Below, piece by piece: positions 2 through 17,584 of a stretch of DNA of 61,564 nt (the stretch's first letter is position 1; the number at the start of each line of letters is the position of its first letter). The stretch lies in the NCBI GenBank assembly GCA_005772855.1, contig SXIK01000137.1, positions 1 through 61,564 of the forward strand. The letters run 5' to 3'. Source of the DNA: Planctomycetia bacterium (GTDB lineage: Bacteria; Planctomycetota; UBA8108; SXIK01). The notes under the pieces are model-generated. The model searched no databases and was not told the DNA's origin. It saw only the letters and a list, made by a program, of their open reading frames with translations. A program made the position numbers and the translations under genes.

Positions 2-238
2 ATCGCACAGCCCACGCTCGCGCTGTCCCGCGTACCCGTGATCACGGGAGATCACTTCGAGGGGCGGCACGTGGACCTGAGGCCCTACATTCTCTACGGG
101 AAGGACATCTACGTCCTGCCCGGCGGGCTCACCCGGGTGGCCCTCAAGAAGGGATCTCTCGTCGTGAACTCCTCCCAGGGAGGCGGAAGCAAGGACACGT
201 GGGTTCTTTCGTCGGATGGAGGGTCTAGGACGTGCTAA
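2..238 (+). CDS. Circularly permuted ATP-grasp type 2 protein, C-terminal end (5' truncated by window)
   Basis: Only the last 78 residues are present; the reading frame is open at the left edge. The visible part has the hallmark C-terminal motifs of the COG2308/DUF407-DUF404 circularly permuted ATP-grasp family: a HVDLRP stretch, then [11 protein letters not shown], then [11 protein letters not shown] close to the end. Members are predicted ATP-dependent carboxylate-amine (peptide) ligases. The stop codon overlaps the GTG start of the following alpha-E gene by 7 bases, the usual tight pairing of these two families. A second, fused copy of the same family lies at 4628-7225. The catalytic part is off the window, so activity cannot be judged. 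Confidence 0.9.
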
Positions 239-1203
239 GTCGAGTTGCAGAAGCCGTCTATTGGTTGAGCCGATACATAGAGCGTGCGGAAAACGTGGCG
301 CGGTTTGTTGACGTCAATCTGCAGTTCACGCTGGACCAGCCGACAGGAACAGAAGCTCAGTGGGAGCCGCTGGTGGCCACGACTGGGGACTCGGCGCTCT
401 TCCGGGAGCGATTTGATGACCCCAGCCGCGAGAACGTGATCCACTTCTTGACGTTCGACGAGCAGAATCCCAATTCCATCCTGTCGTGCCTACGCTCGGC
501 GCGCGAGAACGCACGCTCTGTCCGCGAGGCGATCTCCTCCGAGATGTGGGAGCAGGTGAACAAGTTCTACCTCATGGTAAGCGCAGCGAGGACGGACGGA
601 CGGGCGACCAGGTCACCCCACGATTTTTACAGCGACGTCAAAAACGCGGCGCACCTCTTCGGCGGCGTCACCAACGCCACGCTCTCGCACAACGAGGGCT
701 TCCACTTCTCCAGGCTCGGTTGTCTCATCGAGCGGGCCGACAAGACCACGCGGCTTCTCGACGTCAAGTACTTCGTGCTGCTGCCATCGGTTAGCCATGT
801 GGGCACAACGTACGACGATATTCAGTGGGCGGCCGTACTCCGCTCGGCAAGTGCCTTCGAGATGTACCGCAAGAGATTCGGCCGCATCTCTCCCCCACAC
901 ATCGTCGAGTTTTTGTTGTTGGACCACGAATTCCCCCGATCCGTTCACTTCTGCCTGATGAAGGCGGATCGGTCACTTCATGCAATCACCGGGACCAACC
1001 CAGGATCCTTCCACAACGCCGCGGAGCAGCGCCTGGGACAGATTGTGGCGGAGCTCTCCTTTGCGCAGATCAGCGACGTGCTTCGTTCCGGCTTTCACGA
1101 ATTTCTCGACGGCCTTCAGATCAAGCTAAATGTTGTCGGTGATGCGATTCACGACACGTTTTTTGCCTTGCGGCCGATCGGCAACGGCGCCTCCGTCGGT
1201 TGA
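232..1203 (+). CDS. Alpha-E domain protein (DUF403)
   Basis: The protein has 323 residues, the usual length for a stand-alone alpha-E protein. It opens with the diagnostic [20 protein letters not shown] motif and later carries the second family signature around [18 protein letters not shown], followed by a long all-helical region. The function is unknown. The family is nearly always encoded beside circularly permuted ATP-grasp ligases and transglutaminases and is thought to help that peptide-modification system. It starts at a GTG inside the end of the ATP-grasp gene and its stop overlaps the next reading frame, so it is probably translated by coupling. A second alpha-E domain is fused to the ATP-grasp at 4628-7225. 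Confidence 0.93.
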
Positions 1204-1247
1204 CCTCGGAGGTCGCCGTCGTCTGCCCACCCCTTGAAACCACCCAC

Positions 1248-4200
1248 ATGCCAATTCTCATCGCTCTGCGCCACCTCACCGAGTACAGGTACGATCGTCA
1301 GGTCGAGCTCCTCCCGCACGTGGTGCGTCTCCGCCCTGCGCCTCACTGCCGGACGCCTATTCTGGGCTACTCGCTCAAGGTCGAGCCCTCGAACCACTTC
1401 ATCAACTGGCAGCAGGACCCCTACTCCAACCATCTGGCCCGCCTTGTTTTCCCGAAGAAGAGCGACAATCTGCGGATCGAGGTGGAACTCCTGGCCGAGC
1501 TCCGGGCGTTCAATCCATTTGATTTCTTCATTGATCCATCGTTTGAACAATATCCCTTCGTCTACGAACCCACACTCTCCCGTGAGCTGAGCCCGTATCT
1601 CGAGGCGGGCGATCGCGGACCGCTTCTCAACAAGGTTCTCTCGACGCTACGGCGCGAGAGGGTACGCACCATCGACTACCTTGTCGAGATCAACCAATTC
1701 TTGCAACAGCTTGTGCGCTATCTCATCCGCATGGAGCCAGGTATCCAGACCTGCGAGGAGACGTTGCAGAGCTCGAGCGGGTCATGCCGCGACTCGGCTT
1801 GGCTCATGGTGCAGATCCTGCGCGGACTGGGCATCGCGGCGCGGTTTACGTCCGGCTACCTGATCCAGCTCGTGCCGGACGAAAAGCCCGTCGATGGCCC
1901 GAGCGGTCCACCCGCGGACTTCACCGACCTACACGCATGGGCCGAGGCCTACCTTCCGGGCGCGGGCTGGATTGGCCTGGATCCGACCTCCGGCCTCATG
2001 GCAGGAGAGGGGCACATCCCGTTGGCGTGTTCCGCGGATCCGATCACTGCCGCGGCCATCTCCGGATCTTACCTCTGGGATCGGCTACCGGGAGAGGGAG
2101 AAGACGCTCGCGCCACTGAGGAGCTGACCTTCCAGATGGCGGTGACCCGGTTCGACGAGTCTCCGCGTTCAACCAAGCCCTACACCGATGCAGAGTGGAA
2201 GGCCATCGACACGCTGGGGCACAAGATCGACGCCGAACTCGAGTTGGCCGATGTCCGGCTCACACTCGGTGGCGAGCCGACCTTTGTATCGACGAAGAAC
2301 CGCGATGCGCCGGAGTGGAATACCGCCGCGCTGGGTGACGAGAAACGCCGTATAGCGGACGAGCTCCTCCGGCGGCTGCAAGCCCGCATCGCACCCGGCG
2401 GCTTACTCTTCCACGGCATGGGCAAGTGGTATCCCGGCGAGCCAATACCGCGCTGGGGGTATGGCTGCTACTGGAGAAAGGACGGGGACCCAATCTGGCG
2501 GGATGTCGAGCTGTTCGCAGTGGAGGGCCGGGGGGGGCATTGCGGGGAGTCGGAGGCCCGTCAGTTTATCCGCCGTCTCGCTGAGCGGCTCGAGCTCGAT
2601 CCGAGCAGCCCGATTGCGGCTCACGAGGATGCCTGGTACTACCTCTGGCGCGAGCGTTGTCTGCCGATCAATGTCGACCCCTTCGAATCCAGGCTCGAAG
2701 ATCCGGAGGAGCGCAAGCGCCTTCAGCGCGTGTTTGACCAGGGCCTACGCGCCGTCGTCGGGTATGTGATGCCGCTGCGCAGGGAAGTTGCTTCGAGCGG
2801 CAGCCGACGCTGGCAGAGTGGCCAGTGGACACTGCGTGAAAAGCGCCTTTACCTGCTACCCGGGGACTCGCCCATGGGTTTCCGTCTCCCGCTCGACGCG
2901 CTGCACTGGGAAGCGCAGGAGAGAATCCATCAGGTCCTGGAGCGTGACCCTCTGGAGCCGCGAACTGATCTCCCGCGGTATCCCTGTCGGGACACCGAAA
3001 CATTCGGACAACCTCGCGTCATTGCCCAGGCGCCCCCGGGCATGGCTACTTTCTCGGCGGCAAGAGCCGCCGGCGGCAACCAACCAATCGTCCGTACCGC
3101 GCTGTGCGTGGAGCCGCGTGGAGGCATCTTGCACATCTTCCTTCCACCGGTCTCGCTGGTGGAGGACTGCCTGGATCTCCTGGCGCGCATCGAGGAAACC
3201 GCGCACGACCTGAGTCTTCCGGTAAGGATCGAGGGCTACGCTCCACCTTACGACCCGCGCCTTCAGCACCTCCAGATCACTCCGGACCCGGGTGTTCTCG
3301 AGGTCAACGTGCACCCGTCAGGTAGCTGGTCGGAGTTGGTCAAGAACACGAGTGTGCTCCATGAAGAGGCACGCCAGCTCCATCTCACCGCAGAGAAGTT
3401 CCTGCTCGACGGACGCCCCACCGGAACGGGCGGGGGCAACCACATTCTACTGGGCGGGCCCACTCCTCAGGACAGTCCAATCCTGCGCCGGCCGGACCTC
3501 CTGCGGAGTTTGATCGCGTACTGGCAAAACCACCCGGCGCTGTCCTATCTCTTCAGCAGTGTCTTTATCGGACCCACGAGCCAGGCACCACGGGTCGACG
3601 AGGCCCGCAACGACAGCCTTTACGAGCTGGATATTGCCTTCCGCCAGCTTTCGAACGGAAGTGTCGACCAGGGATCAAGCCCCCCGTGGATCGTCGACCG
3701 CCTCTTCCGCAACTTGCTGGTTGATGTCACCGGCAACACGCACCGCGCCGAGTTCTGCATTGACAAGCTATATTCTCCCGAGACCGCGAGCGGCCGCCGC
3801 GGCCTCCTCGAGATGCGCTCCTTTGAGATGGCTCCCCACGAGCGGATGAGTCTGTCGACCCAGCTCCTCGTGCGGGCGCTCGTGGCCTGGTTCTGGAGGA
3901 CCCCGTACCGGCAACCCCTCGTCCGCTGGGGCACGCAGATCCACGACCGATTCATGCTCCCGCATTTCTTGCAGCAGGACCTCGAGGAAGTCGTCGAGGA
4001 CCTGAGACGGGCGGGCCACATGGTCGACCCGGCCTGGTTCCGGCCTCACCTCGAGTTTCGATTTCCGCAAATCGGCTCCGTGACATGCCAGGGCGTGCAC
4101 CTGGAGCTCCGGCCAGCCCTTGAGCCGTGGCCAGTACTGGGTGAGGAACCAGGGGGTGGAGGGCAGGTGCGGTTTGTCGATTCGTCCGTCGAGCGGCTTC

Positions 4201-4631
4201 AGGTAATGATCGAAGGGCTCACGGAAAAACGCCATGTGGTGACGTGCAACGGCAGGCGTGTCCCTCTCCACCCCACAGGGGCGACCGGGGAATTCGTTGC
4301 GGGTGTGCGCTTCCGTGCCTGGCAGCCGCCTGCCTGTCTTCATCCAAGGATCCCCGTCCATGCGCCCCTCGTTTTCGACCTCGTCGATGCGTGGCAGGAG
4401 CGTGCGATTGGAGGCTGCACCTACCACGTGGTCCACCCCGGCGGCCGAGCCTTCGACACTCTCCCCATCAACTCGCTCGAGGCCGAGAGCCGCTGGCGAG
4501 CCCGGTTCTGGCCGTTGGGCCACTCGATCGGTACCGTGCCCGTGCCGCCCGAGGAGCGGCAAGTGGAGTATCCCATGACCCTGGATTTGAGACGGCCCGA
4601 GTCTGCGTGCCTCAAGGTGCCTGCCGGATGA
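1248..4631 (+). CDS. Transglutaminase-like protease fused to DUF2126 domain
   Basis: This is a 1127-residue two-domain protein. The first 300 residues or so are a transglutaminase-like fold with a small N-terminal beta domain. The catalytic triad is visible: Cys180 in GSCRDSAWL, His229 in DLHAWAEAYLPG and the Asp of GLDPTSG. The rest is DUF2126 (COG4196), beginning near VRLTLGGEPTFVS and containing GMGKWYPGEPIPRWGYGC; as I recall, it has been proposed to be an amidoligase-like domain. The ATG at 1248 is preferred because the family-typical start MPILIALRHLTEYRYDR follows it; a TTG at 1200 would add 16 unrelated residues. The gene sits between an alpha-E gene and an ATP-grasp/alpha-E gene and overlaps the latter at ATGA. 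It probably cleaves or ligates peptide bonds made by the partner ligases; the substrate is unknown. Confidence 0.92.
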   Translation: MPILIALRHLTEYRYDRQVELLPHVVRLRPAPHCRTPILGYSLKVEPSNHFINWQQDPYSNHLARLVFPKKSDNLRIEVELLAELRAFNPFDFFIDPSFEQYPFVYEPTLSRELSPYLEAGDRGPLLNKVLSTLRRERVRTIDYLVEINQFLQQLVRYLIRMEPGIQTCEETLQSSSGSCRDSAWLMVQILRGLGIAARFTSGYLIQLVPDEKPVDGPSGPPADFTDLHAWAEAYLPGAGWIGLDPTSGLMAGEGHIPLACSADPITAAAISGSYLWDRLPGEGEDARATEELTFQMAVTRFDESPRSTKPYTDAEWKAIDTLGHKIDAELELADVRLTLGGEPTFVSTKNRDAPEWNTAALGDEKRRIADELLRRLQARIAPGGLLFHGMGKWYPGEPIPRWGYGCYWRKDGDPIWRDVELFAVEGRGGHCGESEARQFIRRLAERLELDPSSPIAAHEDAWYYLWRERCLPINVDPFESRLEDPEERKRLQRVFDQGLRAVVGYVMPLRREVASSGSRRWQSGQWTLREKRLYLLPGDSPMGFRLPLDALHWEAQERIHQVLERDPLEPRTDLPRYPCRDTETFGQPRVIAQAPPGMATFSAARAAGGNQPIVRTALCVEPRGGILHIFLPPVSLVEDCLDLLARIEETAHDLSLPVRIEGYAPPYDPRLQHLQITPDPGVLEVNVHPSGSWSELVKNTSVLHEEARQLHLTAEKFLLDGRPTGTGGGNHILLGGPTPQDSPILRRPDLLRSLIAYWQNHPALSYLFSSVFIGPTSQAPRVDEARNDSLYELDIAFRQLSNGSVDQGSSPPWIVDRLFRNLLVDVTGNTHRAEFCIDKLYSPETASGRRGLLEMRSFEMAPHERMSLSTQLLVRALVAWFWRTPYRQPLVRWGTQIHDRFMLPHFLQQDLEEVVEDLRRAGHMVDPAWFRPHLEFRFPQIGSVTCQGVHLELRPALEPWPVLGEEPGGGGQVRFVDSSVERLQVMIEGLTEKRHVVTCNGRRVPLHPTGATGEFVAGVRFRAWQPPACLHPRIPVHAPLVFDLVDAWQERAIGGCTYHVVHPGGRAFDTLPINSLEAESRWRARFWPLGHSIGTVPVPPEERQVEYPMTLDLRRPESACLKVPAG

Positions 4632-7225
4632 GGCCGGCAAAGCTCAACAACGCTCGAGCGCCGCAGCCCGGAGTGATCTCTGGCATCCAGTACACCTGTG
4701 CCTCGGATGGGTTGGACGAAATGGTGGATGCGACGGGCAGCACGCGAGCTCACTGGCTGCCCTTTGTTCGATCTCTCGAGGGGATGGGAATGGAGCAGGT
4801 GAATCAGAGCTGGCAAGAAGCACGCCACCTCATTCGCGAGTACGGCGTGACGTACAACGTATATGGTGATCCACACGGCACCGAGCGTCCCTGGGAGCTC
4901 GATCCAATTCCCCTTTTAATCCCTCAAGAGCAATCGAGGGGCCTGGCGGATGCGCTGGCGCAGCGCGCACGCCTCCTCGAGCTGACTCTCGCGGATCTTT
5001 ATGGTCCCCAGACACTGCTCCGGGAGCAAATTCTTCCGCCCGAGCTCGTCTTCGCAAACCCCGGGTTTCTGAGGCCCGTGCATGGCGTGCGTCCCGCGGG
5101 AGGTCGATACCTTTCCATCTATGCCGCCAACCTGGCCCGGGCGCCCGACGGGACGTTCTGGTGCCTCGGGGATCGAACGCAAGCGCCATCGGGTGCCGGC
5201 TACGCACTCAAGAACCGCATCGTCCTCTCGCGAATGCTCCCGGATGTGTTTCGCGAGCTCAGAGTCGAACGCCTCGCCCACTTCTTTCAAGGGCTGCGAC
5301 AGTCCCTGCGCGAGCTGTCGCCGACAAATTGCGAGGAGCCGAGAGTCGTCCTTCTCACTCCCGGGCCCTACAACGAAACCTACTTCGAGCACGCCTTTCT
5401 GGCCCGCTACCTCGGCTTCACGCTGGTGGAAGGAGCGGACCTCACCGTGCGGGACAACAAGGTCTACCTGAAGCTGCTCGAAGGCTTGCAGAGGGTAGAT
5501 GTGATCTTCCGACGCCTCAACGACGATTTCTGCGACCCCCTCGAGCTGCGGGGAGACTCCTTCCTCGGCGTGCCGGGACTTGTCCATGCGGTAAGGCAAG
5601 GCAATGTGGCTGTAGCCAATGCACTCGGAAGCGGGCTGGTAGAAGCGCAAGCGCTTACGCCATACCTCGACGCACTGTGCCGGCATCTCCTGTCGGAAGA
5701 TCTGAGGGTTCCATCCGTCCCCACCCTGTGGTGCGGAAATCACAATTCTCTACAGATGGTCCTCTCACGCCTCGATCGGATGCTGATCAAGCCAGCGTTC
5801 GGAGCGACACGGATGGAGCCGATTTTCGGCGACAGCCTCACGGCGGACAAGCTGAAGGAGCTTGAGACGAGGCTGCGCACCACGCCCGAGGCCTTCACAG
5901 CCCAGGAGATCACACCGCTCTCAACAGCACCCGTGCTGGTCGACGGCAGGCTCGAGGCAAGGCCCGTGGTCCTCCGCACATTCCTGGCAGCCCGCCAGGA
6001 CTCCTACTCGCTCATGCCGGGTGGGCTCACCCGCTTCAGCGCGGCGACGCTCACGCGGACTGTCGCCATGCAAGATGGTGGCGGCAGCAAGGATACCTGG
6101 ATGCTGTCGAATGAGCCTGTCGGATCGTTCAGCCTTCTCCCGCAGCGGGCCCAGCCCATCGAGATCACGCGCGGCGGTGGCGACTTGCCCAGCCGCGTTG
6201 CAGACAACCTGTTCTGGTTGGGCCGCCACGCCGAGCGGACCGACGGGCTTACGCGGCTCTTGCGCGGAATCCTGGTGAGATGCACGGAACGCTCGGGGCT
6301 CACGGAGACGCCAGAGCTCCCGGCACTTCTCACGGCACTCCCGCCATCCTCGCAACTCAACGCCGACACCTTCGAGGACCCGCGTACTGCCCTTGAAACC
6401 CGAAGGGGGGTACGCCCCGAGGATCTGCTGGAGCTCATCTTGAATCCGAACCGCACCGGAAGCCTGGCCTTCGCGCTGAGCACGGTACAACAGGTCGCAG
6501 GAATGGTGCGAGACTACCTGTCCGTGGACATGTGGCGCGTCCTCGCGGGGCTTGGAGTGGACCGGACTCAAGCCTCCGCTGGCCCCCCCCCCCAGACGGC
6601 ATGCGAAGACGCCCCTCGCCTCCTGAGCGAAGGCCTGGATTTTCTCGATACGACAGTCGAGTCGCTGGCCGCGTTCAGCGGACTTGCTGCCGAGAGCATG
6701 ACCCGCGGAGCCGGCTGGAGATTCCTCGACATGGGTCGGCGCCTCGAGCGCTCCGTTCACCTGCTAAGCCTGCTGGAACATGCGCTGGGGCTAACTCGTG
6801 GAAATGAGGGGCCACTCCTCGAGGCCGTGCTCGAGGTGGCGGACAGTTCGATGACCTACAGGCGCCGGTATCTGGGCGACCTCCAGGCCGCCGCGGTTCT
6901 CGATCTCCTTCTCACCGACCGGACGAATCCGCGCTCGCTGATTTTCCAGCTCCTCGCGCTGGCGGACGATGTGCGGAACCTTCCGAGCCGAAAGGACAAT
7001 TTCGAGGAAACACTCGCCCTCGAAACCCTTGCCGCACTGAGACTCGCGGAGATGGAAGAGCTGGCGGTCGCGGACAAGAGAGGGCGCCGATCGAACCTCG
7101 TGGCCCTTCTGCGAAACCTTTCGTCGAAGCTGCCCGTATTTTCGGATCTGATCACCGAGCGCTACTTGAGCCACTTACAGGCCTCTCGACACCTCGGCGG
7201 AAATCGCTCCGGGGGGAGAGAATGA
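4628..7225 (+). CDS. Circularly permuted ATP-grasp type 2 fused to alpha-E domain
   Basis: The fusion protein has 865 residues. Residues 1 to about 500 are the circularly permuted ATP-grasp module (for example VTYNVYGDPHGTERPWELDP near the start and LPGPYNETYFEHAF-like motifs in the middle), ending with MPGGLTRFSAATLTR and [10 protein letters not shown]. From about residue 520 an alpha-E domain begins with SRVADNLFWLGRHAERTDGL. The predicted activity is ATP-dependent peptide ligation. The ATG at 4628 overlaps the upstream stop (ATGA) and the last codon overlaps the start of the next transglutaminase. An in-frame extension upstream to 4244 exists but lies wholly inside the DUF2126 coding region, so it is not used. 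Having both a stand-alone ATP-grasp/alpha-E pair and this fusion makes the operon internally paralogous. Confidence 0.93.
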   Translation: MRPAKLNNARAPQPGVISGIQYTCASDGLDEMVDATGSTRAHWLPFVRSLEGMGMEQVNQSWQEARHLIREYGVTYNVYGDPHGTERPWELDPIPLLIPQEQSRGLADALAQRARLLELTLADLYGPQTLLREQILPPELVFANPGFLRPVHGVRPAGGRYLSIYAANLARAPDGTFWCLGDRTQAPSGAGYALKNRIVLSRMLPDVFRELRVERLAHFFQGLRQSLRELSPTNCEEPRVVLLTPGPYNETYFEHAFLARYLGFTLVEGADLTVRDNKVYLKLLEGLQRVDVIFRRLNDDFCDPLELRGDSFLGVPGLVHAVRQGNVAVANALGSGLVEAQALTPYLDALCRHLLSEDLRVPSVPTLWCGNHNSLQMVLSRLDRMLIKPAFGATRMEPIFGDSLTADKLKELETRLRTTPEAFTAQEITPLSTAPVLVDGRLEARPVVLRTFLAARQDSYSLMPGGLTRFSAATLTRTVAMQDGGGSKDTWMLSNEPVGSFSLLPQRAQPIEITRGGGDLPSRVADNLFWLGRHAERTDGLTRLLRGILVRCTERSGLTETPELPALLTALPPSSQLNADTFEDPRTALETRRGVRPEDLLELILNPNRTGSLAFALSTVQQVAGMVRDYLSVDMWRVLAGLGVDRTQASAGPPPQTACEDAPRLLSEGLDFLDTTVESLAAFSGLAAESMTRGAGWRFLDMGRRLERSVHLLSLLEHALGLTRGNEGPLLEAVLEVADSSMTYRRRYLGDLQAAAVLDLLLTDRTNPRSLIFQLLALADDVRNLPSRKDNFEETLALETLAALRLAEMEELAVADKRGRRSNLVALLRNLSSKLPVFSDLITERYLSHLQASRHLGGNRSGGRE

Positions 7226-8082
7226 AACTCCAGGTCATTCACCGGACTATCTACGCGTACTCAAAACCTGTCTCGCTATGCCACAACGTGGCGCACCTGT
7301 CGGCTCGCGCAACTGCGCAACAGACCCCGCTCCACAGAGAGCTGGAGGTGCAACCAAGCCCAAGGAGCTTCGCGACGTTCACAGATTTTTTCGGCAATGC
7401 AGCCCACTTCTTTTCGGTGGAAGAGTCTCACCAACAGCTCAGTGTGACCGCGGCACAGACGGTGGAGGTCACACCGCACTCTACGGTCGACCCGGGCGTC
7501 TCCCCGCCCTGGGAGGAAGCGCGCACCAGCTCAAGCAAGTCCCTCGAGGTCCATCCCTTCACCCTGGCCTCAACCTACATCAAGCCATTTGCCGAGATAG
7601 CGGCCTATGCGCTGGTGTCGTTTCGACCCGGCCGCCGGATGCTCGATGCCGCGCTCGAACTGACGCGGCGCATCCATGAGGAGTTCGAATACGATCCGAA
7701 CGCCACGACGATCAGTACTCCGGTCCAGGAAGTCCTAGAGAGGCGACGCGGCGTCTGCCAGGACTTTGCGCACCTTGAGATCAGCTGCCTGCGGTCTCTG
7801 GGGCTAGCGGCACGCTACGTGAGCGGCTACCTCCGCACGCTTCCTCCGCCCGGGGAGCCACGCCTCGTCGGCGCCGATGCGACACACGCGTGGGTTTCGG
7901 TGTACTGTCCGAGCCTGGGCTGGGTGGATCTAGATCCAACGAACAACTTGATCCCCTCGGAGGGTCACGTGCTCCTCGCCCATGGCCGCGATTTTGACGA
8001 CGTCACTCCCATCAAGGGAGTCATTCTCGGGGGCGGTGAACACTCCGTCGCGGTGTCTGTCGACGTGTGCCCGGTACCGTAA
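7222..8082 (+). CDS. Transglutaminase family protein (small form)
   Basis: The protein has 286 residues, with an N-terminal beta domain followed by the transglutaminase core. The triad is visible: Cys179 in GVCQDFAHLEISCLRSLG, His222 in DATHAWVSVYCPSLGW and the Asp of DLDPTNN. This is the short form found in most ATP-grasp/alpha-E operons. The gene starts 4 bases before the upstream stop (ATGA overlap), which implies translational coupling. It is the last gene of the operon; an inverted repeat at 8111-8158 follows. It is probably a cytoplasmic peptidase or ligase acting on peptide tags. The natural substrate is not known for the family. Confidence 0.93.
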   Translation: MKLQVIHRTIYAYSKPVSLCHNVAHLSARATAQQTPLHRELEVQPSPRSFATFTDFFGNAAHFFSVEESHQQLSVTAAQTVEVTPHSTVDPGVSPPWEEARTSSSKSLEVHPFTLASTYIKPFAEIAAYALVSFRPGRRMLDAALELTRRIHEEFEYDPNATTISTPVQEVLERRRGVCQDFAHLEISCLRSLGLAARYVSGYLRTLPPPGEPRLVGADATHAWVSVYCPSLGWVDLDPTNNLIPSEGHVLLAHGRDFDDVTPIKGVILGGGEHSVAVSVDVCPVP

Positions 8083-8834: not shown

Positions 8835-9010
8835 CAATGATCGCCTGGTCATCGGTCACGTCCGCCGCGGGGAAAATCCCATGGATATCAAAATCCTGCG
8901 CGTCTTCGGCGCAAGCCATGGACTTAAATTGAATTCATGGAGCGAGTAGGAGTTCCCGGAAACCTCTCGTGGCTCCGCGGCATAGCTTTTGCCGGTTGGT
9001 TCAGCTTCGC

Positions 9011-10387
9011 ATGCCTGCTTTGAGTGAAGAGACTTGGATCGCCCTCCTGTATTCCGCGCTTGCGCTTGGCGCACTCTTTTGCTTGCTCGGCATCTGGCAG
9101 CGGAGGATTCGACAGCACGCAACCGCCCTGGCCCGCGCAGAGATTCAGGACGCTCGAGAGCGGCGCGTGGACGCACCCATGGCGCAGCATCCGCAGATCG
9201 ACGTTCTTCGCTGCATCGGCTGCGGAAGCTGCATCCGCGCCTGCCCCGAGGACCAAGTCATTGGGCTCATCAGTGGCGTCGCGCACATCGTGCAAGGCTC
9301 CCGATGCGTCGGCCACGGGCTCTGCGCCGAAGCGTGCCCCGTGAACGCGTTGACGATCGGGCTCGGCGACTTGGCTCTCCGACCCGACATCCCTGTCGTT
9401 ACGTGTGACCTCGAATCGAACGTACCTGGCGTGTTTCTTGCCGGCGAGGTCGGCGGGATGGCCTTGATCCGCAATGCCGTGGACCAGGGCTCTGGCGTTG
9501 CTTCCAACATTGCACATCGCCTCGGGCTGAGAGGTAGGGCCAACGATTCGCGCGTGGCTGATGTACTCGTGGTCGGAGCTGGGCCTGCCGGCATCTCCGC
9601 AATATTGAAGTGCGTGGAGTTGGGCCTCAGCTACATCGCGATCGATCAAGAAGACGCCGGTGGCACGATCCTCAAGTACCCACGGCGCAAGCTCGTCATG
9701 ACGCAGCCAATTGATATTCCTCTTTACGGCTCCTTGAAAGGCAAGGAGCACTCAAAGGAGGATCTACTCGCGCTCTGGCAAAAGATCGTTCAAGATTTTC
9801 GGCTCGAGATCCGCACGCACGTGAAACTGCTTGGGCTGAGCGGCGCGGAAGGGCTCTTCGAAGCGATGACGTCGGCGGGCGCCATTCACGCTCGCCATGT
9901 GATCCTTGCGCTCGGGCGACGCGGCACGCCCCGCAAGCTCGGCGTGCCTGGTGAGGAGCTTCCGAAGGTCCTCTATCAGCTCATGGATGCTTCCACCTAC
10001 AGCGGACAGAGAATCCTCGTAGTGGGCGGTGGCGACAGTGCCGTCGAGGCGACGACGGCGCTCGCTGATCAGCCCGGCAACGAGGTCACGCTCTCCTATC
10101 GCAAACCATCGTTCGCGCGCCTCAAACGGCGCAACGAAGAGCGAATTCAGAGCTACGCGAAGGCGGGGCGAGCCCGAGTGATCTACTCGTCGAACGTCGC
10201 ACGGATCAGGCCAAGCTCCGTCGAGCTTGCAATCGACGGGGAGGAGGTTCCACTCGTGCTCGAAAATGACTACGTGCTCGTCTTTGCTGGCGGCGACCCA
10301 CCCTTTGCACTCCTCCGGGAAATGGGGATCCGATTCTCTGGCGACAAGCAAGACTCCCCCACCACCAAGGCGAGGGCACTCGCGTGA
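9011..10387 (+). CDS. Membrane-anchored 4Fe-4S flavoprotein oxidoreductase
   Basis: The protein has 458 residues. A single N-terminal membrane segment (about residues 8-28) is followed by a ferredoxin-like part with CIGCGSCIRACP and a second set, CVGHGLCAEACP, in which the usual second Cys is His. Then come two dinucleotide-binding motifs, VLVVGAGPAGIS (FAD) and ILVVGGGDSAVEA (NAD(P)H), as in thioredoxin reductase and YpdA-like enzymes. The element NVPGVFLAGEVGG, normally near the C-terminus of such enzymes, lies before the FAD motif, so the domain order looks permuted. The ATG at 9011 is chosen; a GTG at 8969 would add 14 residues. The stop overlaps the next start by 4 bases. It probably passes electrons from NAD(P)H to the downstream membrane cytochrome. 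Confidence 0.85.
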   Translation: MPALSEETWIALLYSALALGALFCLLGIWQRRIRQHATALARAEIQDARERRVDAPMAQHPQIDVLRCIGCGSCIRACPEDQVIGLISGVAHIVQGSRCVGHGLCAEACPVNALTIGLGDLALRPDIPVVTCDLESNVPGVFLAGEVGGMALIRNAVDQGSGVASNIAHRLGLRGRANDSRVADVLVVGAGPAGISAILKCVELGLSYIAIDQEDAGGTILKYPRRKLVMTQPIDIPLYGSLKGKEHSKEDLLALWQKIVQDFRLEIRTHVKLLGLSGAEGLFEAMTSAGAIHARHVILALGRRGTPRKLGVPGEELPKVLYQLMDASTYSGQRILVVGGGDSAVEATTALADQPGNEVTLSYRKPSFARLKRRNEERIQSYAKAGRARVIYSSNVARIRPSSVELAIDGEEVPLVLENDYVLVFAGGDPPFALLREMGIRFSGDKQDSPTTKARALA

Positions 10388-11277
10388 GAACCGCCACGGA
10401 GAAGCAGCTACGCCTCACTCGAGCGCTCCTGGTGCTCGGCGCTGCCGTCATTGCCGCCTGCGCCTTCCTCGCAGGATCCGGTTGGAGCTACTACCTACTC
10501 CCCATTCACGAGCGGCCATTTCATCCCGAGCATTCAGTGCTTCGGCCTTCGGGCACCTGGGGGCTCACGTTTGGACTCGTCGGCACGCTGTTCATGATCC
10601 TCAATCTCGGCTATCTCGTGCGAAAGCGGCTCGTTTCAGTGGGTTGGCTCGGCTCGCTGCGAAGCTGGATGGGGTTCCATTTGTTTACAGGGCTCGTGGG
10701 GCCAGCGTTGATCGTGCTTCACACCGCGTTCCAACCGTCCAGTGCTCTCGGAACGCTAGCGTTCGCGGCGATGCTCATCGCCGTCGCCACCGGTGTCGTT
10801 GGGCGCTATGTCTACGCGCACATGCCTCGCTCCATCGAAGGGCGGGAACTTGAACTCGGTGAAGCCAAGAAGCGCCTCGATGTCTACCGCCTGGGCCTCG
10901 AGCGCCTGGGAGTGAGACTCCCCACGACCACCCTCGCTGTCGCAGCACAATCCGGGCAGACGATGGAAGTCTGGAGCGCCTTTCGAGCCCTCTTCCAGGC
11001 CGAGCGCGCCGCGCGCCAGGAGTTTGCGCAGTTCCGAAAGGACGTGCTCGCAAACGCGGAGCTCCGAGCTCGCGCTCCTGCGATTCTCCCGGTTGCAAGG
11101 GCGCTCTGCAGAGAACGCCAGCGCATTGCCAGGTATCTCGAGCTCAAATTCCTCATGAGCTCCTGGCGTTTCTTCCACCGCTGGCTCGCCATCGTGATGC
11201 TCCTGGTGGTCCTCTTCCACGTAACGCTCGCGCTGGTGTACGGGGACCTCTGGATCCTGGGAGGTCGGAGGTCCTGA
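10384..11277 (+). CDS. Cytochrome b-type integral membrane protein
   Basis: The protein has 297 residues and about five membrane helices (roughly residues 13-33, 63-83, 95-116, 122-143 and 262-285). Histidines are suitably placed for b-heme ligation: GFHLFTG and VLHTAF in the third helix, and FFHRW and LFHVTL in the last. A charged, helical insert separates helices four and five. The gene starts at a GTG inside the end of the flavoprotein gene, and its stop overlaps the ATG of the next cytochrome (TGATG), so the three are co-translated. Context suggests it carries electrons across the cytoplasmic membrane to periplasmic c-type hemes. Similarity to cytochrome b561 or ferric-reductase folds is inferred from the pattern only. 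Confidence 0.75.
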   Translation: MRTATEKQLRLTRALLVLGAAVIAACAFLAGSGWSYYLLPIHERPFHPEHSVLRPSGTWGLTFGLVGTLFMILNLGYLVRKRLVSVGWLGSLRSWMGFHLFTGLVGPALIVLHTAFQPSSALGTLAFAAMLIAVATGVVGRYVYAHMPRSIEGRELELGEAKKRLDVYRLGLERLGVRLPTTTLAVAAQSGQTMEVWSAFRALFQAERAARQEFAQFRKDVLANAELRARAPAILPVARALCRERQRIARYLELKFLMSSWRFFHRWLAIVMLLVVLFHVTLALVYGDLWILGGRRS

Positions 11278-12989
11278 TGCTCCAGGATCCGCGAGCCCCC
11301 TTTGTCGTCGGCATCGTCGCAATCTTCGCGCTTGCGGCCTACCTGGCCACCAGGCATCCATTGCCAGGCGATCTTTCGGCATCGCATGCGCAAGTGCACG
11401 GCCTCAACGAACTCCGAAACTGCAAGAGCTGCCACGCAGAAGGCGGCCTCGCGTCAGGCTGCCTCGAATGCCACGAAGAAATTCAGGCTCAGCTTGAAGA
11501 ACAGAACGGTTTTCACTTCGCACTGCTCAAGGAAAAACCGCGCGACTGCGCCAGCTGCCATCCCGAGCACCACGGCAAGGATTTTGAGCTCACCACCGAG
11601 CTTTCCTGGCGGGGGCGAGGGCCGGATTATTTCGCTCACGCACACACCGTCTTCCGTCTCACCGGTGCGCACGCACCTCTTGCTTGCGAGGCTTGCCATT
11701 CAAGAAAGCTCCCGAAGCCGTTCTCGCTCCCCAGGCATCAAGACCTGCACCGAAAACACACGTTTATCGGCCTTGAACAAGCCTGTTCCTTCTGTCATGC
11801 GGATGTTCATGCGGGCGGGCTCTCTCCGGCATGCGAGACTTGCCATTCGCAGGACACCTTCCGACCCGCCCCTCTCTTTGATCACGCGAAGTTTTTCCCG
11901 CTTGCGGGCGTGCATGAGCGCGTCGCGTGTTCCCGCTGCCACCTTGTGCCAGATGCAGCTGCGACTGGTGGCGAAGCGGCGATTCAACGGCTTCCTTTCG
12001 ACAAGGTACGGGGAAAGATCTGCGCGGAATGTCACGAGTCGCCTCACAGCGCGACCATTTCTCGTGACTGCGTTGGCAGTCACGCGCCGGATGAGCCCTG
12101 GACAGATGGGCGGAAGAAGTTCACGGCTGAGATTCATGCGACGACCGGCTTCCGACTCGACGCCCCGCACGATCGAGTCGACTGCACCAGGTGTCACAGG
12201 CCAGAGCTGATTTTTCGAGAGCGCTACCCGAGCCCAGGATCGCCGAATTACGCGCGCTCGCAGAACGCGTGCGAAGGCTGCCACGCGGATGTCCACAAGG
12301 GACAATTTCTTGCCAAGCACTCCCGCTCTATCGACTGCCACGAGCCCACGAGATTTGCTCCGGCGCTCTTTGGGCTCAAGGATCATGCGAGCACGTTCGC
12401 ACTTCTTGGCGCGCATGTCGCAGTTCCCTGCCTGGAGTGCCACAAGGGTGAGACGATCGGAGCGCGGGTCTTCGTCGGAACGGCGAGAACGTGCAAGGCT
12501 TTCCATGTGGACACGCATGGCGGGCAATTCACAAGGGATCTGGCCTCGGGCGATTGCACTGCTTGCCACGCCGGTAATGCGACCACGTTCGCGATCCGGC
12601 CCTTTGACCACGCGGCACGGGCGGGGTACGAGCTTCTGGGAGCACACACAAAGGCAAGCTGCAACGACTGTCATCACGCCGCCGATAACGCGCCCAGGGC
12701 CTATCGCGGCACGTCTCAAGAATGCTCCGCGTGCCACCGGGACGTACACCGAGGCCAGTTACGAGTGAACACCGAGGATCGCTGCGAACGATGCCACGTC
12801 TCGGCCTCGAAGTGGAGCACCATTGCATTTGATCACAGCCGTGAATCCAGGTTCGCTCTCGACGGTTCGCACTCGAAAGTGCCGTGCGCAAGCTGCCACA
12901 AGGCCATCGCGCTTCCCGATGGAGAGAAACTGATTCAATTCAAACCCCTGGGGACGAAGTGCGAGGACTGTCATGCCTTCACGAAGTAA
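11277..12989 (+). CDS. Multiheme cytochrome c (17 intact CXXCH motifs)
   Basis: The protein has 570 residues, with an uncleaved-looking N-terminal membrane anchor or signal (about residues 9-25). I count 17 canonical CXXCH heme-binding motifs, for example CKSCH, CLECH, CASCH, CEACH, CSFCH and CETCH. Three further positions are degenerate but keep the His: CVGSH, SIDCH and CKAFH. Repeated elements of the type H-x-F-x-L-x-GAH precede many motifs, as in cytochrome c3/class III-like modules. It is probably periplasmic and receives electrons from the membrane cytochrome b encoded just upstream (overlap TGATG). The next multiheme gene starts 17 bases before this stop. The three lost cysteines are each explained by one base change from a Cys codon. 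Confidence 0.93.
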   Translation: MLQDPRAPFVVGIVAIFALAAYLATRHPLPGDLSASHAQVHGLNELRNCKSCHAEGGLASGCLECHEEIQAQLEEQNGFHFALLKEKPRDCASCHPEHHGKDFELTTELSWRGRGPDYFAHAHTVFRLTGAHAPLACEACHSRKLPKPFSLPRHQDLHRKHTFIGLEQACSFCHADVHAGGLSPACETCHSQDTFRPAPLFDHAKFFPLAGVHERVACSRCHLVPDAAATGGEAAIQRLPFDKVRGKICAECHESPHSATISRDCVGSHAPDEPWTDGRKKFTAEIHATTGFRLDAPHDRVDCTRCHRPELIFRERYPSPGSPNYARSQNACEGCHADVHKGQFLAKHSRSIDCHEPTRFAPALFGLKDHASTFALLGAHVAVPCLECHKGETIGARVFVGTARTCKAFHVDTHGGQFTRDLASGDCTACHAGNATTFAIRPFDHAARAGYELLGAHTKASCNDCHHAADNAPRAYRGTSQECSACHRDVHRGQLRVNTEDRCERCHVSASKWSTIAFDHSRESRFALDGSHSKVPCASCHKAIALPDGEKLIQFKPLGTKCEDCHAFTK

Positions 12990-14244
12990 GCTTCAAGACC
13001 GATTCAGGAGCATCGCTTCCATGGCCATCCTGATGGCCTGGGCGATGATCTCGCTCGATTGTGAGTCACCGGTACCGCGAAACGGCTGGAGCGAGCAATG
13101 GGGCCCGCTCGTACCGCACGACACCTTCCCAAGAGACTGCGGCATTTGTCACGTACCGGAGAGCTGGCACATCTTGCGGGCCGACTTTTCCTATGACCAT
13201 GAGAAGGAAACGGGCTTCGCGCTCGTGGGCGCTCACGCCCGGGCGGCATGCCTGAGGTGCCACAACGACCGCGGGCCTGTATCCGTCTATGTGGCGAGGA
13301 GCTGTGGTGGATGCCATCCGGACCCGCACAAGTCGCAGCTCGGGCTCGATTGCACCCGTTGCCACGATACAACGACGTGGCGCCCTCAGGGGCTCATCTC
13401 CGAGCACGCCCGCACCAGCTTCCCGCTTTTCGGGGTGCACGCTGCGACGCCCTGCGAGAGCTGCCACTTGCAGGCTGCGGTCGGCGACTTTCGCAACGCG
13501 CCCCTTCAGTGCGAACTTTGTCACTCAAGGGATCTCGCACGAGCCACATCGCCCGATCATGCCGCCAGTGGCTGGATCCATCGCTGCGAGCGATGCCACT
13601 CACCGATGGGCTGGGGCAGCGCGAACTTCAGCCACGCGTTTTTCCCGCTAACAGCAGGCCACGCCGGCGTGGCCTGCGTTGCATGCCACACGAGCGGCAC
13701 TTTCGGGCCGATTCCGTCGGACTGCTATTCGTGCCACAGGAACGACTATCAGCGTGCCCCGGATCACGTGGCGCTGGGCTACCCGACCGATTGCACCCGC
13801 TGCCACACCACCGCCGGCTGGACTGGCAAGAGCTTTAACCACAGTTTTTTCCCGCTCACCGGCGGGCACTCCGGCGTGGCTTGTAGAGGTTGCCACACAA
13901 GCGGAAGCTTCACATCAATTCCGACTGCCTGCAACTCTTGTCACAACGACGATTATCAGAGCGCTCCGAATCACCCCGCGCAGGGCTATCCGACCGACTG
14001 CACGCAGTGCCACACGGTCACGAGCTGGCGCGGCGTGGCTGTCCAACACCGCTTCCCGCTGCGAGGGCCGCACAACGTCTCATGCACCACGTGCCACCAG
14101 GGCGGCAGCTTTGCCGCGTTCACCTGCCTCGTTTGCCATGCGCACAGCCAGACAAGCATGGACTCGAAGCACCGCGGCCGCTCCGGCTACAGCTACAACT
14201 CAGAGGCGTGCTACCGGTGTCACCCCAATGGAAAGGGGGACTGA
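12973..14244 (+). CDS. Multiheme cytochrome c (16 CXXCH motifs), probable lipoprotein or secreted
   Basis: The protein has 423 residues and 16 intact CXXCH motifs, giving one heme per 26 residues or so. The second half has near-repeats of about 50 residues, each with HSFFPLTGGHSGVAC-type segments and CHTSGSF. The N-terminus has a hydrophobic signal (AILMAWAMISLDC); the Cys could be a lipidation site, although Asp before it is not typical of a lipobox. The ATG at 12973 overlaps the previous gene by 17 bases; an ATG at 13021 is an alternative closer to the hydrophobic core. It lies between the 17-heme cytochrome and a beta-barrel protein. This arrangement is expected of the cytochrome that plugs an outer-membrane porin-cytochrome conduit. 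Confidence 0.92.
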   Translation: MPSRSKLQDRFRSIASMAILMAWAMISLDCESPVPRNGWSEQWGPLVPHDTFPRDCGICHVPESWHILRADFSYDHEKETGFALVGAHARAACLRCHNDRGPVSVYVARSCGGCHPDPHKSQLGLDCTRCHDTTTWRPQGLISEHARTSFPLFGVHAATPCESCHLQAAVGDFRNAPLQCELCHSRDLARATSPDHAASGWIHRCERCHSPMGWGSANFSHAFFPLTAGHAGVACVACHTSGTFGPIPSDCYSCHRNDYQRAPDHVALGYPTDCTRCHTTAGWTGKSFNHSFFPLTGGHSGVACRGCHTSGSFTSIPTACNSCHNDDYQSAPNHPAQGYPTDCTQCHTVTSWRGVAVQHRFPLRGPHNVSCTTCHQGGSFAAFTCLVCHAHSQTSMDSKHRGRSGYSYNSEACYRCHPNGKGD

Positions 14245-14247
14245 ACC

Positions 14248-15915
14248 ATGCGTGGTCCAATTGTTGCCGGACTCCTGATGGGTCTCCTGGCATCAGCTTC
14301 CGATCAACCAGCCCTCGCCGCGGAATCGACGCTTGAGGCAAGAATCCTCCACGAGATGGCCGATGGACTTTACGTTGATGCTGGCTCGAACCGCGGCGTC
14401 AAGGTTGGCGACAACGGAATGGCTCTTCACAACGGGGCAGAGGCTGCGCGGGTCGAGGTCACTGCGGTGAACCTGAGGTCTTCGCTCGTGAGAGTCATGG
14501 CATGGACCTCGAGCGAGCGGCTGCTTCCAGGTGACATCGTTCGGATCACCACGACGGGCGTCAGCGAGGCAGACCGAGGTGCGGACGGGCAAGGCTCTGG
14601 CGAGAAGCCATCGACGCTCAAGCCACAAACGGACGACAAGGGCGAGTTCGTGCCGCTACTGGCTCCGCCAGTCAAGAGTGTTGCCCTGGCCGCGGATCCA
14701 GCGAACGCGTTCCACGGCCGAGTCTGGCTACGTCAGCTCTACCAGATGGACTCGAAGAGCTCGCAGGACTACGCCTTCACGAGGGTCGGGAGCTCGGGAA
14801 GCATCGAGAGGATTGAAGGCGGCCGCTGGACGCTCGAGTGGTCCGGGGCGCTTTCGTACCGCACCGGAAGCGCGTTCGATGGATCGCGAAATGACGCGGA
14901 GATCCGCCCAGACCTCTTCCGCTTCTCACTCACACGGAGCTTCGAGTCAGGCGCGCTCCTGCGCCTCGGCAGGTTCCTTCCACCAGAGCTCCCGGCCGTC
15001 GGCTACCTCGACGGTGCACAGGGCGAGGCTCTGCTCAACGGACACCTTCGCATAGGTGGGATGCTTGGCTTGAAGCCGACCCGACGCGACCTCGGGGTCT
15101 CCGTACGCGAGCCAACAGCCGTCGCGTACGCCACCGTTGAAGCCGGAGAGCGAGAATCACTCCGCTACTCCGGCACCGCCGGTGTGCTGGGCTCGTTGTA
15201 CGACGGCAAACCGGACCGATTAGCCCTCTTCCTCGACCAACGCCTGGGGGTTAGCCGCTGGCTTTGGCTCTACTCGACGACCGAGGCCGACGTCGACATC
15301 GGCGGCGCCGATGTGCGCAACGGGATACGGCTTACTCGGGAAGACCTGTACGCAACCGTTCCAGTAGCCCCATGGCTCGAGCTGCGCGCAGGCCTCGACC
15401 ACTACGAACGTCCTGACACCGAGGCCGAGCGCGACATCCTCCGCGTCCCAACTGATCAGATTTTTGACAACGGCTACTGGCGCTACTGGAGCGGCGCCAC
15501 GCTACGGCTGCCCCTGGGCTTGGAACTCGGCGGTGAGGCCGGCTACATCAATTCGCCTGGCGACGACGGCGTTCACTGGCGCGCCTCGGCAGCGAAGATG
15601 GGCCTCTTCTCGTGGTCGAACGCAAGCGTGCGCGCCACGATCTACAACCTTCTCGGAGCTGATGCCGATGGATATGGAGGCCGATTCGGCGCCTATCTGC
15701 CCTTGCGGAACAGCACAATTTTCGTGGAGCCCTCCGCCGGAATCCGTCTCCTTGGCACCGACCAGACGAGTCAGGACTTCGAACTTACCGACGTCGCCCT
15801 TCGAGCTTACTGGCAAGCCACAAGTTCCTGGAGCCTCGACGCTGGGATCACGTACATGACGGGGACTGCGGTGGAGGCATGGCTTGTCGACATCGGCGTG
15901 AGCTTCCGGTGGTAG
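14248..15915 (+). CDS. Outer-membrane beta-barrel protein (candidate porin of cytochrome conduit)
   Basis: The protein has 555 residues. A clear signal peptide ends near ALAAES. Residues 30-110 form a small beta domain (LYVDAGSNRGVKVGD and LLPGDIVRITT), followed by a linker. From about residue 150 to the end there are alternating short strands with aromatic residues (for example VWLRQLYQMDS, WTLEWSGALSYR, FSLTRSFESGALLRLGRF). The last residue is Trp in GVSFRW, as is common for outer-membrane barrels. A GGGGGA ribosome site precedes the ATG, 4 bases after the 16-heme cytochrome stop. Barrel proteins next to large multiheme cytochromes form electron conduits in metal-respiring bacteria; the sequence family here was not matched to a known one, so the role is inference. 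Confidence 0.75.
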   Translation: MRGPIVAGLLMGLLASASDQPALAAESTLEARILHEMADGLYVDAGSNRGVKVGDNGMALHNGAEAARVEVTAVNLRSSLVRVMAWTSSERLLPGDIVRITTTGVSEADRGADGQGSGEKPSTLKPQTDDKGEFVPLLAPPVKSVALAADPANAFHGRVWLRQLYQMDSKSSQDYAFTRVGSSGSIERIEGGRWTLEWSGALSYRTGSAFDGSRNDAEIRPDLFRFSLTRSFESGALLRLGRFLPPELPAVGYLDGAQGEALLNGHLRIGGMLGLKPTRRDLGVSVREPTAVAYATVEAGERESLRYSGTAGVLGSLYDGKPDRLALFLDQRLGVSRWLWLYSTTEADVDIGGADVRNGIRLTREDLYATVPVAPWLELRAGLDHYERPDTEAERDILRVPTDQIFDNGYWRYWSGATLRLPLGLELGGEAGYINSPGDDGVHWRASAAKMGLFSWSNASVRATIYNLLGADADGYGGRFGAYLPLRNSTIFVEPSAGIRLLGTDQTSQDFELTDVALRAYWQATSSWSLDAGITYMTGTAVEAWLVDIGVSFRW

Positions 15916-16072: not shown

Positions 16073-17278
16073 TCAGTCATTTACGCGGGGCCATGAGTGG
16101 CAGAGCGTGCAGGTCACGACCTGCCCCTTCGTGAGACGCACAATCTGATGATCCTCGATTCGGAACACCCGGCCTGCCGAGACCCGCGCGAGCGGGCTTC
16201 CCACCTTGAGGTCTGTGCCATGGCAAGCCTGGCATTCCTTCGCCTGGTGCTCCCACACGTTTCCGTGCCGGCCCTTGACCCACCGCAAGTCATTCACAGG
16301 GTGCATGCCAGGAGGTCCAACGAGGCCCAGGGCGACGCTGGCGACTTCGTGGCACGCGCTACACTCCGTGAGCGTCCCCGTGTGCCCCTGAAGCTGCGTG
16401 GCGGCCACGTTGTCGTTGGGGCCGGATCGGCGTTGGCCCACTCGGCGTGCGCGCTCCCGTGGCAGCCCTCGCAAAGTACCCCCCCATGGCCCTTCGAGAA
16501 TCGGAAGAGCGTGCTGTCATTTTCGGCAAACCGCTTGTTCGACGCCAGAATGGGCGACGCCGATTCGTCATCGATGCGGAATGCCTGCTTGAAGCGGAGG
16601 CCGTCGGGTGCCTTCAAGTACTGCGGGCCTTCAAGGTGATCCAGGGCATCCCCCGTGTGGCAGGACTGGCAGCGGGGCAAGGCGGTCCAGGCTCGGCGGG
16701 ACTTACCGTCGTTCTGGCCGTCAAGACTGCCCCCGACGAGCAACGGTCGGACGCTGCCCACGGTAAGCATCTCGCCGTGGCAACTGTTGCACTCCATTGC
16801 TCCGGTCCGCATGGCACCGCGCAGGCACTGCGTTGTCTTGCCCGGGTGGCACCTGTCCACTCACGAATAGTTGGGCCGTCTGGCCAACCATGGAAATCGT
16901 CAAGGGGGACGGCTCCACCGAGAGCTCTGTGATCGGCCAACTGGCGCAGGGAAGATCGTCGGCCGTGGGATCCACGCCGGCGTCAGGAGACGGGGGCGGA
17001 AGGGGGTCCCCCCCGAGGAAGAGGAAATTCAAAAGGAAAACGGCATCAGTCAGGGCCACTGTACCGTCGTCATGGGTGTCAGCAGCGTCGAGGCAAGCGG
17101 GCACATCCTGGCCGAGGAAAAGGTAGCCGAGAAGGGTGACCGCATCGGCGATATTGACCAGGGAGTCGGGGTTGACCCGGCCTCACACGAAGACCTCCGC
17201 CGACACAAGGCCGCGGTTGGCGAAAAGGAGTGGCACGATCAGAACCATGGAGGTGCAGGAGATGTTGGAAAGTTTCAA
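16073..17278 (-). pseudogene. Decayed dockerin-like / multiheme cytochrome gene
   Basis: The gene begins well: GGAGGA at 17286-17291, a 7-base spacer, then TTG at 17278, and a signal peptide (MKLSNISCTSMVLIVPLLFA) ending near VSAEVFV. An in-frame TGA follows at 17183-17185. The same frame then resumes with a dockerin/EF-hand-like repeat pair (VNIADAVTLLGYLFLGQ, then VALTDAVFLLNFLFLGGDP). Near 16860 coding similarity moves to another frame with multiheme motifs (QCLRGAM, ECNSCHG, RCQSCHTGD, LCEGCHGSAH). Near 16420 it moves again (ECSACHEV, ECQACHGTD, TCTLCHSW, ending at 16073). One nonsense change, at least two frame changes and a probable internal deletion make it a pseudogene. The second Cys of its first heme site is kept (DRCH) but the first is lost at the junction. 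Confidence 0.75.
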
Positions 17279-17584
17279 AGTATTTTCCTCCTTCTTGCCT
17301 ACCCGGATGGAGTAATTATTCGTGGCGACGTGCGCTCATGGTTTCTGCCACGCAATCCGGAGGCCACCTGCAAGATCCCCAATCGTGTGCGTGAAATATG
17401 CAACCCTCTGTCATCCGAGTCCAGGCAAGACAAACTCCGGCTTGCGAATGTGCAGCCGACCGTGAAGAGACTCTTCACATGCCTTCTGTGAGGGGCGGTA
17501 GCGCCTCGGGGAGTTAGGAACCGCCCCTGAAAGGCGGGGGCTTGCCGCTCATGACCGTCAACAAGTACGCAGAAAGGAATCGAC
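17279..17584. other. Intergenic region with palindrome and paired hairpins
   Basis: The gap is 306 bases between the divergent pseudogene and the beta-helix gene. It contains a perfect odd palindrome (GTGAAGAG 17462-17469, CTCTTCAC 17471-17478) and then a 9-base inverted repeat, AGGGGCGGT (17491-17499) with ACCGCCCCT (17520-17528). The second arm overlaps a following hairpin GCC/GGC around 17523-17540. The tail resembles the right-end hairpin region of IS200/IS605-type elements, but no transposase or TnpB frame is present. Confidence 0.4.

Follow-up and report, generated by a model that had tools for sequence, protein, structure and literature searches.

At positions 9011-15915, the 61,564-nucleotide contig SXIK01000137.1 of a Planctomycetia bacterium (assembly GCA_005772855.1; the whole contig is hereafter the window) encodes a compact redox cassette: a flavoprotein, a cytochrome b, two multiheme cytochromes (MHC-A and MHC-B) and a predicted outer-membrane barrel (Table 1). 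As the initial annotation of the window had it, the five genes are adjacent or overlapping. All five open reading frames (ORFs) are intact and lie on the + strand, with neighbours overlapping or 3 bp apart, and the CXXCH motif counts agree exactly with the 17 and 16 hemes it gave for the two cytochromes. Both cytochromes also carry export signals, in the form of an anchor helix in MHC-A and a lipoprotein signal in MHC-B.

Table 1. Genes and internal features of the five-gene cassette (window coordinates).
Feature	Position	Strand	Remarks
Flavoprotein gene	9011..10387	+	Pfam Pyr_redox_3 1.2e-39, Fer4 2.1e-10
Two Fe-S motifs, CIGCGSCIRACP and CVGHGLCAEACP	9212..9340	+	His replaces second Cys in second motif
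FAD and NADP(H) binding domain	9560..10345	+	SYRK..FxR motif, typical of NADPH preference
Cytochrome b gene	10384..11277	+	Weak Pfam matches: Ferric_reduct 4e-4, DUF4405 2e-5
Transmembrane helix 3 (TM3), WX3HX13H (W95, H99, H113)	10666..10722	+	Both His in 73/73
TM5, WX3HX13H (W261, H265, H279)	11164..11220	+	Both His in 72/72 sequences having that column
MHC-A gene, inner-membrane-anchored periplasmic cytochrome	11277..12989	+	17 CXXCH
Degenerate heme motif CVGSH, MHC-A	12069..12083	+	
Degenerate heme motif SIDCH, MHC-A	12327..12341	+	
Degenerate heme motif CKAFH, MHC-A	12492..12506	+	
MHC-B gene, lipoprotein	12973..14244	+	16 hemes
Conserved 10-heme core of MHC-B, predicted barrel insert	13138..13806	+	Common to 11/11 aligned homologues
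Six-heme C-terminal extension of MHC-B, predicted exposed outside	13807..14241	+	Conserved tail GYxYxSxACxxCHPxG
Outer-membrane barrel gene	14248..15915	+	555 aa, last residue Trp

The cassette recurs well beyond this locus. The genome (G000) has another copy on contig C83 (L004:1-10085), which comprises a flavoprotein, a cytochrome b, a 20-heme MHC-A, a 10-heme MHC-B and a barrel gene with one in-frame TAG, followed by a 932-aa, 11-heme surface lipoprotein, and six further genomes of the same phylum carry the cassette. A wider scan with MHC-B as bait and one genome per species returned 103 relatives, 80 of which were kept, with no cassette in the most distant rows. These relatives came mostly from metagenome-assembled genomes (MAGs) of Planctomycetota, and also from MAGs titled Elusimicrobia, Acidobacteria, Myxococcota, Krumholzibacteriota, Eisenbacteria, Kiritimatiellales and others. 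The quartet of flavoprotein, cytochrome b, MHC-A and MHC-B was complete in 33 of the 34 loci over 19 kb, and a barrel relative was found in the majority of the long loci. The cultured bacterium Emticicia oligotrophica DSM 17448 has the cassette on plasmid pEMTOL02 (L105, NC_018749.1 72380-91129), beside ccsA and with a 23-heme MHC-A and a 40-heme MHC-B. Gene order and content recur across genomes far above chance: the unit is real and conserved, no isolated case but a widespread cassette.

Flavoprotein and cytochrome b form a single ORF in 25 cases. The flavoprotein tree calls for two changes to account for the fused forms, one in a large Planctomycetota clade and one in a pair of loci, L094 (titled Deltaproteobacteria) and L102 (Myxococcaceae). 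These fusions bear out the early assignment of an NAD(P)H flavoprotein to the unit as a genuine member; an AlphaFold2 model of a fused protein reached a pTM of 0.63. The cytochrome b itself is predicted to have five helices and two b hemes, in an N-in/C-out topology with, judging from loop charges, short positive loops and a large positive loop in the cytoplasm. Nearly all of these cytochromes b contain WX3HX13H twice together with [STA]GXXG, present in the window copy as SGXXG, and all four predicted heme-b histidines are invariant in relatives. The protein scored under the Pfam Ferric_reduct cut-off (20.9 bits vs 28), and comparison with PDB sequences gave nothing informative. Hydrogenase-linked cytochrome b relatives on Alteromonadales plasmids were considered and judged distant. 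On plasmids of Glaciecola (L107, CP002527.1) and Methylophaga (L106, NZ_CP095734.1), distant kin of the cytochrome b adjoin ferredoxin-type and cytochrome c genes, and in Glaciecola a [NiFe]-hydrogenase as well. This may be a hydrogenase-linked form of the membrane module.

The flavoprotein starts with a membrane helix and positive residues, which lead into a dicluster ferredoxin domain and then a TrxR/YpdA/FNR-type domain for FAD and NADP(H). An alternative start exists at 8969, and position 9011 is favoured because the family begins at the first helix. The histidine at a cysteine position of the second Fe-S motif (His116) is kept in 57 of 64 relatives and is likewise found in Emticicia. Arginines of the NADPH type are nearly universal among the same sequences (R378 in 64/64, R384 in 63/64), none of which share conserved cysteines outside the Fe-S motifs. 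Both by PDB sequence and by the fold of a fused relative, the closest neighbours of the FAD domain are Bdr/YpdA and ferredoxin-NADP reductases. The protein lacks a conserved redox dithiol such as that of thioredoxin reductase, and it falls below the curated cut-offs of both family models (154 of 339.9 bits for YpdA, 60.7 of 343.45 for TrxR).

Relatives of MHC-A mostly have 17, 20, 23 or 26 hemes. The window copy has three further, degenerate motifs, in each of which another residue stands in for one cysteine (codons AGT, TCT and TTC); the other ten seed relatives keep CXXCH at these sites, except for one that lacks the third stretch. With 17 hemes, the window copy has a reduced number for this family. 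The losses may be sequencing errors, although the five ORFs are otherwise intact.

MHC-B, which has a nearly invariant lipobox-like cysteine (C30, 13060-13062), comes in two builds. Short homologues have 7-10 hemes, stop just past the 10-heme core and are usually followed by a separate 11-heme lipoprotein; long homologues, to which the C-terminal extension with its shared tail is restricted, have 13-53 hemes and never have such a neighbour. Among loci with enough sequence, the 11-heme lipoprotein accompanied 10 of 11 short and 0 of 40 long forms (Fisher p 9e-10), an association that amounts to only two independent contrasts on the tree and is a hypothesis rather than a statistical proof. This pairing nevertheless suggests that the first 7-10 hemes of MHC-B cross the barrel and that the remainder stand in for the surface cytochrome. 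The 16-heme protein of the window, originally envisaged inside the barrel, is probably not wholly within it. The best PDB match of the MHC-B profile was 6r2q chain A (E 3.5e-4), which we take to be MtrA in MtrCAB, although MHC-B was far under the DmsE/MtrA model cut-off (26.4 bits vs 192.2); the 11-heme surface lipoprotein had no match in PDB. The largest homologues have 53, 52, 46 and 40 CXXCH motifs (L068, 9524-13735; L077; L082; L089), and in an acidobacterial MAG a flavoprotein and a 19-heme MHC-B form one ORF (L072:4428-7847), either a true fusion or an assembly error.

The 555-aa protein is predicted to consist of a signal peptide, an N-terminal beta domain (residues about 26-103) and a 22-strand barrel (154-554) ending in the terminal Trp. 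The AlphaFold2 model, built with 52 homologues, had a pLDDT of 86.5 and a pTM of 0.76, and Foldseek matched it to porins and usher pores (best E 2.3e-9, TM about 0.3-0.5). The strand count and these porin fold matches agree with its initial designation as a barrel. No sequence match was obtained in Pfam, NCBIfam or PDB, including any MtrB/PioB model of the first two, and none against plasmids. As modelled, the protein is a barrel but no recognisable MtrB.

The cassette stands isolated: a transglutaminase-type gene ends before it, at 8082, and after it lies a broken multiheme gene of the opposite strand. The former belongs to an upstream group (232-8082) of Alpha-E, DUF2126 amidoligase, circularly permuted ATP-grasp and transglutaminase genes. 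The latter (16073-17300, - strand) joins a dockerin-like N-terminus to a multiheme cytochrome; its sequence is divided between two frames and contains an in-frame stop, and it is likely a pseudogene.

Inner-membrane proteins of the porin-cytochrome clusters PCC3 and PCC4 share five helices, two copies of WX3HX13H and an SGXXG motif (He et al. 2017, PMC5566968). Because the cytochrome b bears this published signature, we interpret the cassette as a PCC3-like porin-cytochrome conduit that has its own entry point for NADPH, at a probability of about two in three (0.68). In this reading the inner-membrane protein would be fed by a dedicated NADPH:Fe-S flavoprotein, in place of or besides quinol, and the cassette is a real, conserved and probably complete NADPH-linked trans-envelope conduit. 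The basis is the observed gene content, gene order, fusions and conserved ligands, along with the predicted barrel fold; from these we infer a single continuous chain, a quinone bypass and a direction of flow. The fusions, the invariant ligands, the NADPH arginines and the kinship of the FAD domain all point to a route from NADPH through FAD, Fe-S and heme b to the periplasm. NADPH would reduce the FAD of the cytoplasmic flavoprotein, whose two Fe-S clusters would pass electrons to the cytoplasm-side heme b, and the inner membrane would be crossed via two stacked b hemes. In the periplasm, electrons would enter the anchored MHC-A wire; from there they would reach MHC-B, the lipoprotein inserted in the 22-strand barrel, and leave by its extracellular hemes or, in sister cassettes, by the separate 11-heme surface lipoprotein. 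Cytochrome c assembly genes in the host and ccsA beside the Emticicia plasmid cassette provide a context consistent with this scheme. The direction assigned at the outset, from cytosolic reductant to outside acceptor, is not established by these features; chemically, electrons could also run the other way, from an outside donor to NADP+. More tentatively, and at somewhat less than even odds, the cassette would be a quinone-independent single-operon wire between cytosolic NADP(H) and extracellular acceptors or donors, widespread in Planctomycetota and several other phyla. Just the first 7-10 MHC-B hemes would then fill the barrel, and the others, at most some 40 more, would face outward or be replaced by a separate surface cytochrome.

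Several points weigh against this interpretation. The host genome encodes complex I and a heme-copper oxidase, besides one NapC-type match, so that on gene content the conduit is not the host's sole respiration; some intermediate could make a step uphill, though NADPH is a strong donor; and the three lost MHC-A heme motifs could mean that the chain is broken in the window copy. Quinol could also still feed the cytochrome b, and a fully quinol-fed conduit would reduce the flavoprotein to an accessory or regulatory redox partner. Quinone activity has been proposed for the PCC3/PCC4 inner-membrane proteins (PMC5566968), quinone binding is common among bis-heme cytochromes b, and the host has a quinone-type chain. 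We nevertheless find this version unlikely, with 25 fusions putting the NADPH/Fe-S module directly onto the cytochrome b and a flavoprotein in all but one of the long loci.

The chain could also serve electron uptake, with an outside donor, for example a mineral, a partner cell or Fe(II), feeding electrons inward to a flavoprotein that makes NADPH or reduces ferredoxin. PCC3 and PCC4 have been proposed as Fe(II) oxidation routes (PMC5566968), and the flavoprotein domain is near ferredoxin-NADP reductases, which are able to run both ways. However, electron transfer from Fe(II) to NADP+ runs steeply uphill, and the cassette shows no coupling site in the form of an ion pump or quinone bifurcation, which leaves uptake doubtful. 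Alternatively, the window cassette could be a decaying copy, a paralogue of the C83 cassette that has been altered or no longer functions; this would account for the missing MHC-A heme cysteines and for the broken multiheme gene next door. Yet the five ORFs are intact, conserved positions are kept in MHC-B, barrel, flavoprotein and cytochrome b, and the in-frame stop sits in the C83 barrel rather than in that of the window, all of which make decay very improbable.

Studied extracellular electron transfer chains begin at quinol. If the NADPH-fed conduit is real, a dedicated NADPH:cytochrome b entry would directly link the redox balance of biosynthesis with minerals or partner cells; it would also offer a candidate feeder for the unexplained PCC3/PCC4 inner-membrane proteins. 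Strong cytochrome b matches (E below 1e-20) in 52 of 392 sampled genomes would likely extend electroactivity to many uncultured Planctomycetota, and Emticicia oligotrophica DSM 17448 is a possible cultured model organism for testing the cassette.

Among known systems, NADPH oxidases and ferric reductases also couple an NADPH-flavin module to a membrane protein in which electrons cross via two b hemes on HX13H helices. The cytochrome b described here shares the two HX13H helices, as predicted heme b ligands, but its flavoprotein is of the TrxR/FNR type with Fe-S clusters and its acceptor would be a c-heme chain. For MHC-B, the working analogy is the decaheme cytochrome in the barrel of MtrCAB and MtoAB (Shewanella, Sideroxydans), although the cassette reaches neither the MtrB/PioB barrel models nor the DmsE/MtrA cut-off of the MtrAB and DmsE-PioB type. 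The Geobacter OmbB-OmaB-OmcB and Verrucomicrobia porin-MHC clusters likewise combine a barrel with periplasmic and surface MHCs; they have other inner-membrane partners and no described flavoprotein, and the Verrucomicrobia clusters differ further in their eight-heme periplasmic cytochromes (PMC5615132).

The initial annotation drew its comparison from Geobacter and Shewanella, whereas the same kind of cytochrome b had already been published in 2017 in PCC3 and PCC4 (PMC5566968). In PCC4, subgroup II, Planctomycetes included, already has an Fe-S protein gene upstream of the inner-membrane protein (PMC5566968). A literature search of partial coverage found no description of the cassette described here. 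PCC4 shares the porin, the MHCs and the inner-membrane protein motifs, but has three smaller MHCs of 4, 5 and 10 hemes and no large wire cytochromes, and its remaining redox genes are not itemised in the main text of that paper (PMC5566968). The closest counterpart is PCC3, known from Sideroxydans, Leptothrix and others (He et al. 2017, PMC5566968), whose porin, large periplasmic MHC, extracellular MHC and inner-membrane protein in one cluster are all matched here, the cytochrome b fitting an inner-membrane protein of about 300 aa. Heme numbers run in parallel, with 21/24/27 reported for the periplasmic MHC in Gallionellaceae and 10-35 for the extracellular MHC of PCC3 (PMC10734462), against mostly 17/20/23/26 in MHC-A and 7-53 in MHC-B. 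The published descriptions of PCC3 consulted here (PMC5566968, PMC10734462) report it from Proteobacteria and include no NAD(P)H flavoprotein; since a flavoprotein was found at 33 of the 34 long loci, we call the present cassette PCC3-like rather than PCC3.

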